A DNA stretch of 64,000 nucleotides from Maribacter zhoushanensis (lineage in GTDB: Bacteria; Bacteroidota; Bacteroidia; Flavobacteriales; Flavobacteriaceae). Below the pieces are notes generated by a model. It had not been told where the DNA came from, searched no databases, and saw nothing but the letters and a program-made list of their open reading frames with translations. The DNA lies in assembly GCF_029350975.1 (NCBI RefSeq), contig NZ_JARKMR010000009.1:1-64000 (forward strand), read 5' to 3'. A program made the translations under genes and the position numbers. Below, one piece after another: positions 12,082-21,633 of this stretch (positions within the stretch are counted from its first letter, which is position 1; the number at the start of each line of letters is the position of its first letter).

Positions 12082-15000
12082 ATGACATTTTTTAAAAAAT
12101 TGCTTTTAGGGACTATATCCCTATTGTTTCTTTGCGCTTCTTGCATAAATAAAAAACCTGTTGAAATACCGTTGACCATACAACAAGACAGTACCGATCT
12201 TATTGAGATGGCCAAGCTTGCCAGAGAAACCATTACGGCAGATATAGCTGAAGGACTAAAACTAAGTCTTTGGGCTTCTGACTCCTTAGCTCCAGACCCA
12301 ATTGCGCTGGATATTGACAATGAAGGCAACGTGTACATTACACGCTCCAACAGAAATAAAAACTCGGAGTTTGATATTCGCGGACATAGAGATTGGATGA
12401 CGGCATCAATAGCATTAGAATCTGTTGAAGATAGAAGAGCCTTTTTACATAAAACTTTTGCTCCTGAACTCAGTGACGAAAATGATTGGTTTCCTGATTT
12501 AAACAATGACAGTATTCATGACTGGCATGACCTTGCCGTAGAACAAGATGAAATATGGATGTTACAAGATACCGATGATGATGGTATTGCAGATATTTCT
12601 ACCCAAATCATGAATGACTTTAGTAATGAAATTAATGATGTTGCTGGTGCACTTTTAGTCCGTGACGAAGATGTCTTTGTTGGTATTGGTCCTGGCATGT
12701 ATCGCCTAACAGATACTAACGATGATAAAATTTTAGATGAAAAAACGAGTATTGCAGAGGGTTTTGCCGTACACATTGGTTTTAGTGGTCACGGTATGTC
12801 TGGTGCTATTGAAGGTCCTGACGGTAAAATATATTGGGGCATTGGTGATATTGGTGCAAATATAACCACCGTAGATGGTGAAAACCATAAATACCCTAAC
12901 GAAGGGGTTATTGTAAGAAGTAATCCTGATGGAACAGACTTTGAAGTTTTTGCACACGGACTACGTAATACCCACGAGTTTGTTTTTGATGCCTACGGTA
13001 ATATTATTTCATCTGATAACGACGGTGACCACAAAGGCGAAAGTGAGCGCTTGGTTCATATTGTAGAAGGTTCCGATGCCGGTTGGAGGGCAAATTGGCA
13101 ATATGGAAAATATACAGATCCAAAAAACAACGGCTACAATGTATGGATGGATGAAAAATTGTTCACTCCACGCTGGGAAGGTCAAGCTGCATATATTATG
13201 CCGCCTGTTCAAAATTTTCATAACGGCCCTACTGGAATGATATATAACCCTGGTACTGCTTTAGGTAAAAAATGGATGGATAAATTCTTCTTAGTAGAAT
13301 TTGTAGGTGACCCAAGCAGATCTCATATTTGGTCATTTGACCTACAACCAAAAGGTGCTTCGTTTGAATTAAAGAGTGACGAATCCATTTTATCCGGAGT
13401 ATTGCCAACAGGGATTGATTTTGGACCAGATGGCGCCTTATATCTGGCAGATTGGGTCAATGGATGGGGAACCAAGAATTACGGTAGAGTATGGAAACTT
13501 GACGTTACAGAACAAGATAATGACCTTGCTGAAGAAAGACTACAAACCCAGCAGTTGATGACACACAACTATAAAGATGAAAAGACCGATAGTTTGGTTG
13601 GTTTATTATCCTATGGCGATATGAGAATTCGCCAAAAAGCACAGTTTGAACTTGCCAAAAGAACTTTTTGGGGTTATCGTGCTTTAGAAAAAGCCATAAC
13701 TGAGGAAGAAAACCAATTGGCACGTATACATGCTATTTGGGGTATTGGTCAAATAGCTGCCAATGATGTAGATGAAGCTGAACCATTACTAAATTTACTA
13801 CATGACAAAGACCCTGAAATTATAGCACAAAGCGCAAAGGTCTTGGGCGATGTACTATATAAAAAAGCTGCGGATAGTTTAATAACTCTAACCACCCATG
13901 AAAATGACCGTGTAAAATTCTATGCGGCGCAAGCATTGGGAAGGTTAAAATATGAAAAAGCCATTGCCCCCTTGTTGACCATGATAGAAGCCAATAATGA
14001 TCAAGATCTCTACTTAAGACATGCCGCTGTTCTAGCCTTAGCTAGAATAGGAAATTCTGAACCGCTTTTAGCCCTTGCCAATAGTGACAATAGAAGTCTT
14101 AGAATTGCAGCGGTTATGGTCCTTAGAAAATTAAAAGATCCTAAAATATCTATATTTCTTTCTGATAAACACGAATATATTGTTACCGAAACTGCGCGAG
14201 CTATAAACGATGATCTGTCTATTGAGGCTGCGTTACCTGCATTAGCAGCAACGTTGAACAACGAAAAATTTAAATCTGAACCTTTGTTACGTAGGGCAAT
14301 CAATGCCGCTTTACGTGTAGGTGGTGATGAGCAATTAGATTTCCTTATCAATTTTGCAAAACGAAAAAGCGTTTCTAGCAATTTACGTGGTGAAGCGCTT
14401 GCTGCATTAGGCACTTGGAACAATCCATCACTTTTAGATCGTGTAGATGGTAGATATAGAGGAGAAATTAAAAGAGAAAACGGTCAGTTAGAAGAAAAAA
14501 TCAATAAAGATATACCGGCATTCCTTAAAGAAAGTCAACCTGAAATATTAATCGGAATTTCAAAAACTATCAGTGCTATAGGTATCACCGCTTACAATGA
14601 TGACTTCTACTCTATTCTTAAATCGAACAAATCACCTGAAGTTAAAACCGCAGTATTAAATGCCTTAGGGCAATTAAAATTCAATAAAATGGAAAGTGCC
14701 ATGTCTATTGGTATGCAAGATAAAAACGAACAGGTAAGAACTGCAGCCGTAGGTTTATTGAGCCAATTAAATATTTCAAAAGAGAAACTTCCCAAAATTG
14801 TAGATCCTATATTTAAAAATGGTTCTGTTTCCGAACAACAAAGAATGTTGAATGTTCTAGGTGATTTACCAGTTGATAATAGTAATGCCATACTTACCAG
14901 CTTAATCAATAAAGCTAGTAGAAATCAGCTAAAGCAAGGTATATTATTAGATTTAATGGAATCGGTAAAAGCTACTGAGAATCCAAAACTTATTGCACAG

Positions 15001-15513
15001 TTAGATAATTTGAAAAAAGCAGGATTTTCTGCAGATACTTTTCAAGAAACTCTATATGGAGGAAACTGGTGGGCAGGTAGATCTGTTTTCAACAACAACC
15101 CTACAGCGCAATGTGTACGTTGCCACTCTGTAAACGGTTCAGGTGGTGAAGTAGGTCCTAAATTAGATAATATTGGTAATGTCTTGGACAGACAGCAATT
15201 ATTAGAAGCGCTTATTGAACCGAGCAAAAGATTGGCTCCTGGTTATGGGAGCATAACAATCACTTTAAAAGACGGGCAAAAAGTTCAAGGCGTGTTAATA
15301 GAAGAAAATAATAAAGAGATTTTGCTAAGAACATCTGAAGCTGAACCTCTAAGAATTCCTTTAATGAGAATCGCTCAAAGAGAAAATTCAATGTCAGCCA
15401 TGCCTGCTATGGGTCGTATGATTTCTAGAAGAGAACTTCGAGATCTTATACAATACCTGGGCTCTTTAAGAAATAAAGTACGGATTATTGAAGGTGAAGA
15501 TAAAGAAGTATAG
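12082..15513 (+). CDS. PVC-type lipoprotein: dehydrogenase-like propeller, HEAT repeats, cytochrome c
   Basis: This 1143-residue lipoprotein has a signal peptide with lipobox LCASC, Cys22 probably being acylated. Residues about 45-475 form a beta-propeller of the membrane-bound dehydrogenase type common in Planctomycetota (GPDGKIYWGIGD, GIDFGPDGALYLADW). Residues about 500-985 are HEAT repeats. The C-terminus is a cytochrome c-like module with one haem site, CVRCH at 1011-1015, then the IEPSKRLAPGYGSITITL block typical of 'putative heme-binding domain' proteins. It probably oxidises a sugar or polyol at the envelope and hands electrons to a respiratory chain; that role is inferred. It diverges from the DUF1080 gene and its stop directly abuts the nitronate monooxygenase remnant. 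Confidence 0.93.
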   Translation: MTFFKKLLLGTISLLFLCASCINKKPVEIPLTIQQDSTDLIEMAKLARETITADIAEGLKLSLWASDSLAPDPIALDIDNEGNVYITRSNRNKNSEFDIRGHRDWMTASIALESVEDRRAFLHKTFAPELSDENDWFPDLNNDSIHDWHDLAVEQDEIWMLQDTDDDGIADISTQIMNDFSNEINDVAGALLVRDEDVFVGIGPGMYRLTDTNDDKILDEKTSIAEGFAVHIGFSGHGMSGAIEGPDGKIYWGIGDIGANITTVDGENHKYPNEGVIVRSNPDGTDFEVFAHGLRNTHEFVFDAYGNIISSDNDGDHKGESERLVHIVEGSDAGWRANWQYGKYTDPKNNGYNVWMDEKLFTPRWEGQAAYIMPPVQNFHNGPTGMIYNPGTALGKKWMDKFFLVEFVGDPSRSHIWSFDLQPKGASFELKSDESILSGVLPTGIDFGPDGALYLADWVNGWGTKNYGRVWKLDVTEQDNDLAEERLQTQQLMTHNYKDEKTDSLVGLLSYGDMRIRQKAQFELAKRTFWGYRALEKAITEEENQLARIHAIWGIGQIAANDVDEAEPLLNLLHDKDPEIIAQSAKVLGDVLYKKAADSLITLTTHENDRVKFYAAQALGRLKYEKAIAPLLTMIEANNDQDLYLRHAAVLALARIGNSEPLLALANSDNRSLRIAAVMVLRKLKDPKISIFLSDKHEYIVTETARAINDDLSIEAALPALAATLNNEKFKSEPLLRRAINAALRVGGDEQLDFLINFAKRKSVSSNLRGEALAALGTWNNPSLLDRVDGRYRGEIKRENGQLEEKINKDIPAFLKESQPEILIGISKTISAIGITAYNDDFYSILKSNKSPEVKTAVLNALGQLKFNKMESAMSIGMQDKNEQVRTAAVGLLSQLNISKEKLPKIVDPIFKNGSVSEQQRMLNVLGDLPVDNSNAILTSLINKASRNQLKQGILLDLMESVKATENPKLIAQLDNLKKAGFSADTFQETLYGGNWWAGRSVFNNNPTAQCVRCHSVNGSGGEVGPKLDNIGNVLDRQQLLEALIEPSKRLAPGYGSITITLKDGQKVQGVLIEENNKEILLRTSEAEPLRIPLMRIAQRENSMSAMPAMGRMISRRELRDLIQYLGSLRNKVRIIEGEDKEV

Positions 15514-15647
15514 TCATAAGGAGGAAAGTTCTGCTTTCCTCTTATTAAACTCTTTAATCATTTCCTTTACAATTTCACCAGCAGGTTTAATGTCGTGTAT
15601 CAACGCAGATACTTGACCTATTTCTAGTTCGCCATCTTCTAAGTCGC
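15514..15647 (-). pseudogene. Remnant copy of the nitronate monooxygenase 3' end
   Basis: Bases 15529-15647 match 17576-17694, the 3' end of the intact nitronate monooxygenase gene, in the same orientation: 113 of 119 positions identical with no gaps. The reading frame is still open and ends in its own TGA at 15514-15516, giving a C-terminus ...KAELSSL instead of ...KAEISNF. The upstream part of the gene is missing: similarity stops abruptly at 15647. The remnant's stop abuts the stop of the cytochrome lipoprotein gene. This looks like the displaced original 3' end left when the 2-kb segment carrying the next gene entered. Confidence 0.88.
15529..15647. repeat. 119-bp direct repeat, left copy
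   Basis: Left copy of a 119-bp direct repeat flanking the AT-rich orphan gene. It differs from the right copy (17576-17694) at six positions. The distance between repeat starts is 2047 bp. Confidence 0.95.
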
Positions 15648-15744
15648 AAAGTCAATATTCATTTTTTTATGGCATGTTAATTGAGAATACTACATTACTC
15701 TAAATAAACTTTTAACTCTTATAACCTGCTTTAAAACCACTCTT

Positions 15745-17571
15745 ATGAAAAAAGGTATTTTATTAGTTTTAGGCTTTTCGGTTTTGTTATTTTCTTTTCT
15801 TCAATGCAAGCCCAAACCAGATTTAATAGTTAAAAATCATCAAGAAGACCCATTTAAAAATACTATTACTTCGAGTCAATATTTTAAAATTGACACTAAA
15901 AATGATACCGTAATTTCTGGCGAGAATGGAACCACAATAGTATTTCAAAAAGGAAGTTTTTTAGATTCTGATAATAATATAGTCACTGATGATGTTGAAA
16001 TAGAATTAACCGAAGCGCTTACTATAGATGAGATGATTTTAAGTAACCTCACTACTATATCAGATGGAAAGCTTTTAGAGACTGATGGAATGATTTACTT
16101 TAATGCAACCGCTAAAGGCAGACAACTATTTGTAAATCCTGAAAAGCCTGTATATGTAGAAATTCCTACTGCCAATCGAAAATCAGGAATGTCTGTTTAC
16201 AAAGGTTTGCGAGATAAGAATGGGAATATGAATTGGGTAAATCCGATTCCGATAGAAAATTATCTTATTCCTTTAGATTTGTTTACGTTAGACTTTTTAC
16301 CTGACGGATTTGTTGAAACATTAGAAAAAGAAATGCCTTTTCTTAATAACCAGAAAGTGAATGAAAAGTTCGTTGATAGTTTATATTATAGCCTATACTT
16401 TAAAACTGGAAATGAAATTATAGAAGAAACTGTACCAGATACAAATGTTAGCGAATCCTATTATGATAAAGTAAATGAAAAAAAATTAGATTCAACTCAC
16501 TACTCAGAGTTTGACAATTCAGTTAACTATGGAGTTGATCCAGCTGCAATTAAAGCAATAAAAAATAATCAGTTTCAAAATACATTAATTGCCACAAAAC
16601 AATTTGAAGAAAGGCTTAAAGTCATGTTTAAAATTTGCCGAAGTGATATCATCGATATTTATGCACAAAATCTTGACAAGAATTTATGGGAAATAGACAG
16701 TATTGCTGCTAGCTTATTAGACGAGAATGTTTATCAAGAAGATTTTGAAAAATTTGCATCTCAAAAATGGACTAAAATAAAAGTTCCTAATAAAAACTTA
16801 CTACTCTTAAAAAGTTATTATGAAAATAGATTGCAATTAGTTAAAAATGAATTGACAGAGCAACGTAACAAAGCCGTTAAGGCAAACAATGAAAAGACAA
16901 AAGAAGCTATCGAATTAGTTGATAATTATAAAAAACTACTTAATAAAAGAGAAGCTTATAGAATGACTGGATATGGTTTTGAACTGACTGATATTGGCTG
17001 GATTAATATTGACAAAGGTACAATACCCAAAAATTGGGAATATTCGCCTTTAGATTTTTTAGTTACAAATGAAAATACCTTTGACAGGGCATATGGTTAT
17101 GTTATGTATACCTCAATAAAAAGCCTTTATCGTTTAAAAACAAATGACTCCAAAACGTTTTATGTTGGCAACCAAACCCAAAGAGAAATGATAATGCCTA
17201 AAGATGAGAAAGCAATTGGTATACTTCTCGCATATAAAAATAATCAAACCTTTTTAGATGTAATTAATTTTCAAACAAATACTGACGGTCTATTAAAATT
17301 TGATCTTCAAGAATATCCTGAAAGGGAAATTAAAAAGACATTAGCTCAGTTTGAAACTTCAAAACAAGAAAACTCTATACTAGAAGACTTAAAATATTTA
17401 GATGAGATTTATCTTGAAGAAATAAGACAAGAAAAACTATTAAGAGAAGAATATGTAATGCATCAATTATGGTCAGTTTCAAGAGCAAATGATACATCAT
17501 ACATGGAATTTGATAAAACCTATGCTATAGATTTGCTTATCGAAACTTGCTTAAATAATGTCAGAAATTAG
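15745..17571 (+). CDS. Orphan lipoprotein of unknown function, probably acquired
   Basis: This 608-residue predicted lipoprotein has signal peptide and lipobox FLQC, with Cys21 as the likely lipidation site. Residues about 50-150 are beta-rich (TVISGENGTTIVFQKGSF and an LLETDGMIYFNATAKGRQL block typical of Bacteroidota surface lipoproteins of unknown function). The middle (about 270-400) is helical with coiled-coil character. A C-terminal region from about 415 is mixed. I do not recognise a catalytic motif. Three lines I counted inside it have 14, 18 and 14 G+C per 60 bases, against 24 per 60 in one line from each flanking gene. It sits between the two 119-bp direct repeats, and its last 11 bp overlap the end of the nitronate monooxygenase gene. 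All this suggests horizontal acquisition. Confidence 0.85.
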   Translation: MKKGILLVLGFSVLLFSFLQCKPKPDLIVKNHQEDPFKNTITSSQYFKIDTKNDTVISGENGTTIVFQKGSFLDSDNNIVTDDVEIELTEALTIDEMILSNLTTISDGKLLETDGMIYFNATAKGRQLFVNPEKPVYVEIPTANRKSGMSVYKGLRDKNGNMNWVNPIPIENYLIPLDLFTLDFLPDGFVETLEKEMPFLNNQKVNEKFVDSLYYSLYFKTGNEIIEETVPDTNVSESYYDKVNEKKLDSTHYSEFDNSVNYGVDPAAIKAIKNNQFQNTLIATKQFEERLKVMFKICRSDIIDIYAQNLDKNLWEIDSIAASLLDENVYQEDFEKFASQKWTKIKVPNKNLLLLKSYYENRLQLVKNELTEQRNKAVKANNEKTKEAIELVDNYKKLLNKREAYRMTGYGFELTDIGWINIDKGTIPKNWEYSPLDFLVTNENTFDRAYGYVMYTSIKSLYRLKTNDSKTFYVGNQTQREMIMPKDEKAIGILLAYKNNQTFLDVINFQTNTDGLLKFDLQEYPEREIKKTLAQFETSKQENSILEDLKYLDEIYLEEIRQEKLLREEYVMHQLWSVSRANDTSYMEFDKTYAIDLLIETCLNNVRN

Positions 17572-18502
17572 AAATTTCTGCTTTCCTCTTATTAAACTCA
17601 TTCATCATCTCCTTTACAATTTCACCAGCAGGTTTAATGTCGTGTATCAACGCAGATACTTGACCTATTTCTAACTCACCATCTTCTAAGTCGCCTAAGA
17701 ACATACCTTTCTTGGCACGCCCTCTGCCTAAAAGCGTTTTTAATACTTCGGTAGTCGCTCCGTCAGAATATGCTTGTTGTACGTTGTTGTAGAATTTGTT
17801 TTTCACTAAACGAACGGGTGCCAGTTCTTTTAATGTCAAATGAGTATCTCCTTCCTTTGCCGCTACCACCACCTTTTTAAAACTATCATGATTAGAGGCT
17901 TCTTTACTTGCTACAAACCTACTACCAACCTGCACCCCATCGGCACCTAAAACCATAGCTGCCAGCATTGATTTACCCGTGGCGATACCTCCTGCGGCAA
18001 TTAAGGGAATTGTTATTTTTTCTTTCACTGCAGGAATCAAAACTAAAGTTGTTGTTTCATCCCTACCATTATGTCCGCCAGCTTCAAAACCTTCTGCCAC
18101 AACAGCATCTACTCCCGCTTCTTGTGCTTTCAAAGCGAATTTTAAGCTACTGACCACATGCACAACGGTTACTCCTTTTTCTTTTAAAAAAGATGTCCAA
18201 GTTTTAGGGTTTCCAGCAGATGTAAATACAATCTTTACCTCCTCTTCTATGATAATATCCATCAATTTATCAATGTCAGGATAGAGCATAGGAACATTAA
18301 CTGCAAAAGGTTTCGTAGTCGCATTTTTGCACTTTTGAATATGCTCACGCAAAACATCAGGGTACATGCTACCGGACCCAATGACTCCTAAACCTCCTGC
18401 ATTTGATACAGCACTGGCTAGTCTCCATCCGCTGGTCCAAATCATTCCTCCTTGAATTATTGGATATTCTATATTAAAAAGTTGGGTAATTCTGTTTTGC
18501 AT
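17561..18502 (-). CDS. NAD(P)H-dependent flavin oxidoreductase / nitronate monooxygenase family
   Basis: This 313-residue TIM-barrel FMN enzyme begins with the family signature (TQLFNIEYPIIQGGMIW), has the AGGLGVIGSG phosphate loop, and carries EAGGHNG at about 140-146 with the active-site His. The FMN-phosphate motifs AAGGIATG and GADGVQVGSRF follow. Members oxidise alkyl nitronates such as propionate-3-nitronate or act as enoyl-ACP reductase-like (FabK) oxidoreductases, so the exact substrate is open. Its last 11 bp overlap the convergent lipoprotein gene, and its 3' 119 bp are duplicated at 15529-15647, so the final residues may come from a donor strain. Confidence 0.9.
   Translation of the reverse strand: MQNRITQLFNIEYPIIQGGMIWTSGWRLASAVSNAGGLGVIGSGSMYPDVLREHIQKCKNATTKPFAVNVPMLYPDIDKLMDIIIEEEVKIVFTSAGNPKTWTSFLKEKGVTVVHVVSSLKFALKAQEAGVDAVVAEGFEAGGHNGRDETTTLVLIPAVKEKITIPLIAAGGIATGKSMLAAMVLGADGVQVGSRFVASKEASNHDSFKKVVVAAKEGDTHLTLKELAPVRLVKNKFYNNVQQAYSDGATTEVLKTLLGRGRAKKGMFLGDLEDGELEIGQVSALIHDIKPAGEIVKEMMNEFNKRKAEISNF
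17576..17694. repeat. 119-bp direct repeat, right copy
   Basis: Right copy of the direct repeat, forming the intact 3' end of the nitronate monooxygenase gene from the Glu codon of KAEISNF inward. It is 95% identical to the left copy, with mismatches clustered at both ends and a perfectly matching centre. Confidence 0.95.
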
Positions 18503-20085: not shown

Positions 20086-21633
20086 ATGAAAAAAATGCTG
20101 AGATTACGAAATTTTTTACTGCTACTTACTATTACCATGGTTACATGGTCATGTAGTGACGATGATGATGTGGAACCTATGATAGCCAACGAATTGACTA
20201 TCGTTGAAACCGCCCAAGCGGAAGATGCACTTTCTTCTTTGGTTGCCGCTCTTACAACTGCCGATAATTCTGAAGGAACCGATTTAGTAGGGACTTTGAG
20301 TTCTGACGGACCTTTTACCGTTTTTGCCCCAACAAACGATGCTTTCGATGCATTATTAAATCAATTAGATGATTTTGACTCACTTGCTGACTTTGATACA
20401 GATGAAGAAAGAGCAATTTTGACCTCTATCTTAACGTATCATGTAGTTTCTGGAGTTGCTGCAAACTCTTCAGATTTAACAAATGGCATGACGGTTACCA
20501 CCGTACAAGGTGAAGATTTAACTATTAATATTGATGGCGATGTATTTATTGATGATGCTACCGAAGTTGATGCTCAAGTAGTCATCGCAGATGTGGAAGC
20601 TAGCAATGGTATTGTTCATGTTATTGACAAAGTATTGTTACCACAAGCTATAATTGATGCTCTGAACGGAGAAGAAATGCCTGAGGAAAATGGAACACTT
20701 GTAGATATTGTTGTAGCTACTGAGCCATTATCTTTATTGGAAGCTGCTGTTATTAAAGCTGATTTAGTTGCAACCTTAAGTTCAGAAGGACCATTTACTG
20801 TTTTTGCCCCTACCGATGATGCCTTTGTAGCACTATTAGATGTATTAGGTGACGACTATAATAGTCTAGATGATTTTGATACCGACGAGGAAATTGCTCT
20901 TTTAACTAACATACTATTATATCATGTAATTGCTGCAGAAGTTAAATCTACAGATTTAGCTGCTGGCGAAGTTGCTACAGCATTTGAGAACAACAGCGTT
21001 GAAGTAATTTCTTCTGGCGACTCATTTGTAATAGGTGATGCTTCTGATACCGATGCAAATATTACAGGTGTTGACATTATGGCTTCTAACGGGGTTGCCC
21101 ATACCATCGATAAAGTTTTATTACCACAAGCGGCAATTGACTTTGTTGTTAGCTTACAATTAAAAACTATTGTAGACACAGCAGTTGCTACAGATGATTT
21201 AAGTTTATTGGTAGATGCTTTGGTACAAGCTGATGAAGGTTTGGTTGAGACACTTAATGGCGATGGTCCTTTTACAGTATTTGCACCTACAAATGATGCT
21301 TTTGTTGCTCTTTTAGATGCTTTAGGCGAAGATTATACTAGCCTAGCCGATTTTGATACAGAAGCTGAAAAGAGTTTATTAGTAACCATTCTTACCTATC
21401 ACGTGGTAGCAGGAACTGCCGCTTTTTCTACAGATTTAAGCAATGGACAATCTATTGAATCTTTTCAAGGTGAAAACGTAGGTATTAATATTAAAGAAGA
21501 TGGATCGGTACATGTAGAAGATGCAACCGAAGAGAATGCAACAGTAGTTATTGCAGATGTAGAAGCTAGTAACGGAGTTGTTCATGTTATTAACAAGGTT
21601 CTTTTGCCACAGGCAGCACTTGATGCACTATAA
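20086..21633 (+). CDS. Lipoprotein with three fasciclin (FAS1) domains
   Basis: This 515-residue acidic lipoprotein has a signal peptide with Cys23 in WSCSDDDD; the acidic run after Cys is the Bacteroidota export signal for surface lipoproteins. Three FAS1 domains follow at about residues 36-197, 203-353 and 357-515. Each has the GPFTVFAPTNDAF-type first conserved region, a YHV block and an ASNG(I/V)VH(V/T)I(D/N)KVLLPQA second conserved region. FAS1 domains mediate adhesion or extracellular polymer binding. Domains 1 and 3 resemble each other most (VVIADVEASNG in both), suggesting internal duplication. It is monocistronic with a strong terminator. Confidence 0.93.
   Translation: MKKMLRLRNFLLLLTITMVTWSCSDDDDVEPMIANELTIVETAQAEDALSSLVAALTTADNSEGTDLVGTLSSDGPFTVFAPTNDAFDALLNQLDDFDSLADFDTDEERAILTSILTYHVVSGVAANSSDLTNGMTVTTVQGEDLTINIDGDVFIDDATEVDAQVVIADVEASNGIVHVIDKVLLPQAIIDALNGEEMPEENGTLVDIVVATEPLSLLEAAVIKADLVATLSSEGPFTVFAPTDDAFVALLDVLGDDYNSLDDFDTDEEIALLTNILLYHVIAAEVKSTDLAAGEVATAFENNSVEVISSGDSFVIGDASDTDANITGVDIMASNGVAHTIDKVLLPQAAIDFVVSLQLKTIVDTAVATDDLSLLVDALVQADEGLVETLNGDGPFTVFAPTNDAFVALLDALGEDYTSLADFDTEAEKSLLVTILTYHVVAGTAAFSTDLSNGQSIESFQGENVGINIKEDGSVHVEDATEENATVVIADVEASNGVVHVINKVLLPQAALDAL

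Follow-up and report, generated by a model that had tools for sequence, protein, structure and literature searches.

A mobile single-gene cassette that lacks its own recombinase gene, found at the end of a nitronate monooxygenase gene in six Maribacter genomes

How can a foreign gene settle at the end of another gene and leave that gene whole? The question is raised by a locus in a 64,000-nucleotide stretch of the Maribacter zhoushanensis genome (the window; genome G000), in which a predicted lipoprotein gene lies between two direct copies of the 3' end of a nitronate monooxygenase (NMO) family gene (Table 1). Positions 15529–15647 and 17576–17694 are identical at 113 of 119 positions, a recount that confirms the repeat described in a first-pass annotation made from the letters of the window; the same pair appears as 142 nt at 89% identity in the repeat-family listing and as 124 nt at 94% in BLAST. 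As described there, the left copy reads in frame to ...KAELSSL and a stop, and the intact NMO gene ends in ...KAEISNF. The NMO gene matches PF03060 at 210 bits (Pfam) and the FabK model TIGR03151 at 318.5 bits, under the model's cut-off of 453.1. In every carrier its stop sits within the last codons of the lipoprotein gene, so the cassette supplies the NMO stop. On the plus strand the left copy folds into a hairpin of −13.9 kcal/mol (z −3.65), the sequence of which is also present, by eye, at most empty sites, while the same region of the right copy reaches −5.3 kcal/mol (z −1.30) and has not kept the hairpin; a simple terminator scan of 15400–17800 listed no terminator. In G000 the left copy is the former NMO 3' end, terminator hairpin included, and the right copy is its near twin, closed by a stop from the cassette; only the final few bases, stop codon included, are clearly of cassette origin. 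An assembly artefact or chance is excluded because the arrangement recurs in five other genomes, in one of which (G033) it lies on a single 4.78-Mb contig.

Table 1. Features of the NMO–lipoprotein locus, in window positions.
Feature	Position	Strand	Basis
Upstream lipoprotein gene (cyt; DUF7133, HEAT repeats, cytochrome c domain)	12082..15513	+	Pfam scan, synteny
Terminator-like hairpin in left copy	15519..15543		Fold, empty-site sequences
Left copy, remnant of original NMO 3' end, now non-coding	15524..15647	-	Repeat search, BLAST, alignments
Decayed left junction	15648..15669		Alignment of carriers
Mobile cassette: 5' region, lipoprotein gene and stop	15669..17571	+	Identity between carriers
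608-aa predicted lipoprotein gene	15745..17571	+	ORF, profile scans, dN/dS
Tail-to-tail overlap of NMO and lipoprotein genes	17561..17571		ORF positions, gaps
Right copy, present 3' end of intact NMO	17571..17694	-	Repeat search, BLAST
NMO family gene, target kept intact	17561..18502	-	PF03060

The protein encoded between the copies has a signal-peptide-like start with ...FLQC (by eye), which makes it a predicted lipoprotein. No family match was obtained in Pfam, NCBIfam or PADLOC; PHROGs gave one weak match of unknown function (E 0.053), and PDB sequences gave weak matches (best E 0.059). The gene had been called an orphan, which holds for families but not for long relatives, found in genome G249 (42% over residues 14–607) and in a Lutibacter MAG (39% over residues 19–514). 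The Lutibacter relative (L081, 6208–7683) stands tail to tail with trpA and so likewise adjoins the end of a housekeeping gene, and no long direct repeat was found at this locus. The dN/dS values among carriers are 0.15–0.31, so the protein is kept by purifying selection, and it presumably gives a selectable surface trait; its AlphaFold model is poor (mean pLDDT 43.3 on 4 sequences). Phage or plasmid cargo is rejected, since we found no relatives in phages or viral contigs and a single plasmid match with 21% coverage. The low G+C content noted earlier is real for the insert as a whole (28.8% at 15648–17575 vs 34.5% for the window), and the lipoprotein frame has the lowest GC among the 35 frames of at least 250 codons in the window, counted from stop to stop so that some may not be genes. 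However, its GC3 of 20.7 is equal to that of a fasciclin gene, so the low GC is partly due to amino-acid make-up. The fasciclin domain of this gene (20086–21633) is matched in three stretches, and its longest frame differs among near genus mates (about 495–833 aa).

To place the arrangement in the genus, we ourselves sorted 36 Maribacter genomes by the content of the interval between cyt and NMO. The lipoprotein gene with both NMO 3' copies is found in six: the window genome, Maribacter spongiicola DSM 25233 (G003), a Maribacter MAG (G008), G011, G025 and G033. One genome (G019) has a decayed lipoprotein copy. The site is empty in 15 (G001, G004, G012, G013, G015, G016, G018, G021, G022, G024, G026, G027, G028, G031 and G035), where cyt and NMO lie next to each other, −4 to 32 bp apart. 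A DUF5004 gene of about 175 aa occupies the interval in eight (G002, G005, G007, G010, G014, G023, G029 and G030), four have no cytochrome gene at the locus (G006, G009, G017 and G032), and two were not scorable (G020 ends inside NMO, and G034 is without a close NMO). An Acyl_transf_3 gene lies in the interval of two of these genomes, together with the DUF5004 gene in G010 and beside the decayed lipoprotein gene in G019; both the DUF5004 and the Acyl_transf_3 genes are unrelated to the lipoprotein gene. When direct copies were looked for at E 0.01, all six carriers had them. No copies were recovered from 14 further genomes, 13 from the genus and one from the family, in which the interval is otherwise filled or cyt is missing. 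The first-pass annotation had proposed an insertion and suggested looking for an empty site in relatives; the insertion is borne out by the genomes in which cyt directly adjoins an intact NMO. The same gene order in all relatives, with the lipoprotein following the species tree, was not seen. Its suggestion of a recurrent slot holds in so far as the same cassette occurs in six species and other genes occur in the interval, but those lack 3'-end copies. Tandem duplication of NMO is rejected, because 15 genomes of the genus are empty and the left copy continues into the native terminator.

Several further observations concern the surveyed genomes. In G020 the contig (L051) opens at NMO codon 275, close to where the repeat has its inner edge, which a duplicated 3' end might explain, and this 68%-complete genome gave no lipoprotein match. 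The Acyl_transf_3 genes of G019 (L038, 8079–9044) and G010 (L070, 4915–5724) are related and belong to distant genus members. In the distant G010, the acyltransferase gene is colinear with the cytochrome gene, with a single overall identity of 68.5% over 1.8 kb, so the acyltransferase gene is probably old at the locus and lost elsewhere. Fragmentation of rpoB, of a gyrB-type gene and of cyt suggests a low-quality assembly for G010 (L070). A wider scan of the window genome, covering 1.606 Mb of 4.257 Mb (38%), listed 49 repeat pairs of 60–700 nt, at least 78% identical and 0.5–9 kb apart, among which the NMO pair was the sole one judged to be an intact 3' end and a non-coding remnant around one gene. 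A short 77-bp pair on C10 (49227/49804) touches a gene end. Small contigs of the window genome are filled by very long repetitive open frames, L168 (C5, 199–16047, 5282 aa) and L169 (C6, 769–13482, 4237 aa).

There is good support for movement of the cassette from species to species. In the rpoB+gyrB comparison, the distribution of carriers requires six changes among 18 scored genomes (of 25 rows, 7 that were decayed, rearranged or distant did not enter the count) and again six in a second count among 20 genomes. The six carriers as one clade were rejected (AU p 7e-23, and 4e-7 without two gyrB-only rows). The flanking genes make G000 and G008 neighbours, and their placement as lipoprotein sisters was rejected (AU p 0.0003); the lipoprotein trees are weakly resolved and the alleles mosaic. 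Comparison of synonymous distances revealed lipoprotein dS values of 0.08–0.46 between carriers, against 0.32–1.87 for four neighbouring genes (c4, cyt, NMO and mnmA), which lie above the lipoprotein in 15 of 15 pairs. The dS of rpoB exceeds that of the lipoprotein in 10 of 10 pairs, one nearly tied, and that of gyrB in 13 of 15, the exceptions being G000–G008 and G033–G025. Between G000 and G003, dS is 0.08 for the lipoprotein, 1.03 for NMO and 1.54 for cyt. Outside G008, the cassette is 88–99% identical in 200-bp bins between carriers, and its short non-coding 5' region is likewise similar. The scattered carriers and the low lipoprotein dS agree with the mobile gene proposed earlier. The locus is a one-gene mobile cassette at the NMO 3' end in six Maribacter genomes, without a recombinase gene of its own; one gene crosses species borders into the same address in six species without an adjacent mobility gene, and the duplicated gene end accounts for the survival of the target gene.

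Analysis of the inner left junction indicated how the cassette may have been founded. One alignable junction is common to all six carriers, which points to one founding insertion followed by spread between species. It is least decayed in G025, where the left copy still matches NMO as far as CCTTTTTT, at a distance of about 150 bp from the stop of NMO. Beyond this point it continues as cassette, with ATTTATGGCATG where NMO itself has GGCACG. The junction lies at T6/GGCA, the right end lies inside NMO homology, and the donor is known solely as the decayed copy in G019. There, the decayed lipoprotein gene has the same tail-to-tail position relative to NMO, with the Acyl_transf_3 gene before it, and a search found no left copy. 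The G019 sequence is 63–67% identical to the cassette right of the junction and 35–43% left of it, suggesting a donor-like arrangement. The c4 gene of G019 encodes a 3-keto-disaccharide hydrolase domain.

We then compared carriers with one another and the left with the right copies. Between G000 and G003, identity rises from 79 to 99% at 15605–15614 and falls from 95 to 83% at 17571–17601, inside the two copies. The fitted tract runs from 15583–15612 to 17564–17735 for G003–G011 and from 15605–15617 to 17706–17751 for G000–G011. Fits for the other 12 carrier pairs are broader or displaced, with the right end often inside the last part of the lipoprotein gene; in several, including all five with G008, the breakpoints are outside the copies or broad, and the G008 pairs are uninformative. 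The left and right copies agree in 73 of 76 columns in G000 (the next best among other aligned sequences being 66–67), in 71 of 76 in G033, and in 54–62 of 76 in G003, G011, G025 and G008. In these last four genomes the copies match different backgrounds, and in G000 and G033 both are likely local. The 5% divergence in the window had been read as a new 3' end from another strain. For G000 the divergence does not show this, since its copies are each other's closest match and both look local; that assignment is drawn from their private likeness, with no close empty relative among the genomes compared. Judged by sequence likeness, a foreign 3' end may fit G011 and G003, each with two copies of different backgrounds. 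The foreign part of the right copy comprises about the last 43 columns in G011, the last 20–25 in G025 (vs G018), and the last 16–24 in G008 (vs most empty genomes).

The closest view of a crossover is offered by G011 and the empty genomes G021 and G035, the flanks of which are 93–99% identical in most bins. The left copy of G011 has one mismatch to G021 in columns 0–39, none in 42–52 and five in 53–82, and seven to G035 in 53–82; columns 40–41 differ from both copies. Its right copy has 14 mismatches in columns 0–43 and few beyond. Read by eye, the mismatch columns show both copies of G011 switching within repeat columns 44–52, the left one out of native sequence into foreign and the right one the opposite way. 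Since both copies are able to switch there, one reciprocal crossover would suffice, as a gain or a loss; the signature comes from this one species pair. Automatic fitting put the left switch at column 123 when G021 was the reference and at 40 (28–123) when it was G035, and gave a tight position for the right switch alone (42–50); in G025 vs G018 the right switch falls at 20–25, and most other fits are broad. In this pair an occupied and an empty site have near-identical flanks, and the crossover can be placed within about 9 bp, which makes it a testable case. On rpoB+gyrB, G011 is placed beside G028. Over the c4-to-mnmA block and beyond, G011 (L036) is about 90–93% identical overall to G021/G035 (L047/L048), with bins to 99%, which, set against its placement with G028, suggests a larger exchanged segment.

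We infer the founding step and the recombining agent, and assign a probability of roughly 0.6 to founding by homologous recombination on the NMO side with a microhomology join, followed by RecA-type spread via the NMO 3' copies. In a G019-like lineage, the lipoprotein gene would have stood tail to tail with NMO. A piece of such DNA would have entered a genome with an empty site, recombining homologously in NMO on the right and joining on the left through the T6/GGCA microhomology at a point some 150 bp into the NMO 3' end of the recipient, and the outcome would have been an intact NMO with a spare old 3' end. During later spread, the 3'-end copies and the NMO sequence next to them would be the sites of recombination, leaving NMO whole and the old terminator still behind the neighbouring gene. 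The agent is most likely homologous recombination, and RecA-type recombination after DNA uptake would be the simplest form of it. DprA and ComEC-type genes are encoded in the genome; both are common, each in 10 of 14 control genomes, and are no proof of competence. As outlined in PMC7965970, natural competence was shown in some Flavobacteriaceae (Riemerella), and Flavobacterium johnsoniae showed none under the same conditions. No duplication of recipient DNA is expected from a simple linear double crossover, and the copies in G000 and G033 are too alike mid-repeat for a single crossover, so these two genomes need later gene conversion or a true target duplication. A tentative extension, which we hold to be possible though doubtful, makes the duplicated gene end a mobility device: recombination between the copies would free a circle with the gene and one NMO 3' end, which would enter any empty-site genome by one RecA crossover, with NMO always whole. 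If true, the cassette would be a self-targeting, recombinase-free mobile unit with host homologous recombination as its only 'enzyme'.

The closeness of the copies in G000 and G033 would also be expected if each arrival were a true insertion with a long target duplication, made by an unknown process that copies about 70–120 bp of the recipient's NMO end; carriers whose cassette has an especially close relative do tend to show the lowest left-right divergence (n = 6, with G003 as the exception). Gene conversion after an ordinary crossover would, however, give the same picture, the copies of four of the six carriers are only 54–62 of 76 alike, and the common inner left junction implies that the inner left copy travels with the cassette, so we regard this explanation as rather unlikely. 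That shared junction would equally suit an old insertion or tandem duplication in the carriers' ancestor, followed by many precise losses between the direct copies, with allelic exchange lowering dS. Direct repeats would permit exact loss, the lipoprotein alleles are mosaic, and G018 is empty within a carrier clade. Yet a dS of 0.08 where adjoining genes have 1.0–1.9 needs exchange anyway, the rejection of G000 and G008 as lipoprotein sisters despite their flanking genes speaks against it, and the copies are young in G000 and G033; this history seems unlikely.

Site-specific integration is more improbable still. Phage-like elements insert at icd or guaA and bring a replacement 3' end, and the NMO 3' region could be such an attachment site, with the cassette carrying the replacement and the integrase acting in trans or lost. 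The anatomy is the same, with a duplicated 3' end and a whole gene, and the single alignable left junction in all six carriers and the tight boundaries of the closest pair are in keeping with it. Nevertheless, the lipoprotein gene is the sole gene between the copies in all six carriers, with no recombinase-family match in Pfam, NCBIfam or PHROGs, in line with the earlier remark that no integrase was visible. The other interval occupants scanned are an acyltransferase and a DUF5004 protein, and the scan of 38% of the genome gave no second case. The right switch points also differ between G011 and G025, although later recombination could blur one core. The preferred reading remains founding by NMO-side homologous recombination with a microhomology join, and later homologous spread.

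Several known systems share parts of this picture. In icd/e14 and guaA islands, the element brings a replacement 3' end and the old one lies on the far side; those islands carry or derive from integrase-bearing elements, and none was seen at the Maribacter locus. The minimal mobile element of Neisseria consists of differing genes between two conserved genes, exchanged by transformation and homologous recombination without a recombinase. The Maribacter locus resembles it in its varied gene content without a recombinase, with lipoprotein, DUF5004 and Acyl_transf_3 genes as alternatives between cyt and NMO; to our knowledge, the concept includes no duplicated gene end. Homology-facilitated illegitimate recombination is known from Acinetobacter work. 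As outlined in PMC3240628, it is homologous at one end with an illegitimate join at the other, which fits the founding junction. It is known from laboratory transformation and conjugation, whereas here it is read from an old junction, and the later spread of the cassette, unlike it, looks homologous on both sides. The closest published kind is the 'insertion with long target duplication' of Helicobacter pylori (Nobusato et al. 2000, as summarized in PMC1643837, PMC3031569 and PMC4978471), often of restriction-modification genes, for which gene mobility was proposed. In both, as far as these accounts describe the pattern, one or more extra genes are enclosed by long direct copies of empty-site sequence; in Maribacter, 15 of 36 sites are empty and six hold the insert between direct copies of site sequence. 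The H. pylori cases, as summarized there, concern strains of one species, whereas the Maribacter cassette is one lipoprotein gene in six species, its inner junction is common to all six, and one pair allows a crossover to be located closely. The pattern published in 2000 gains a lipoprotein example outside Helicobacter.
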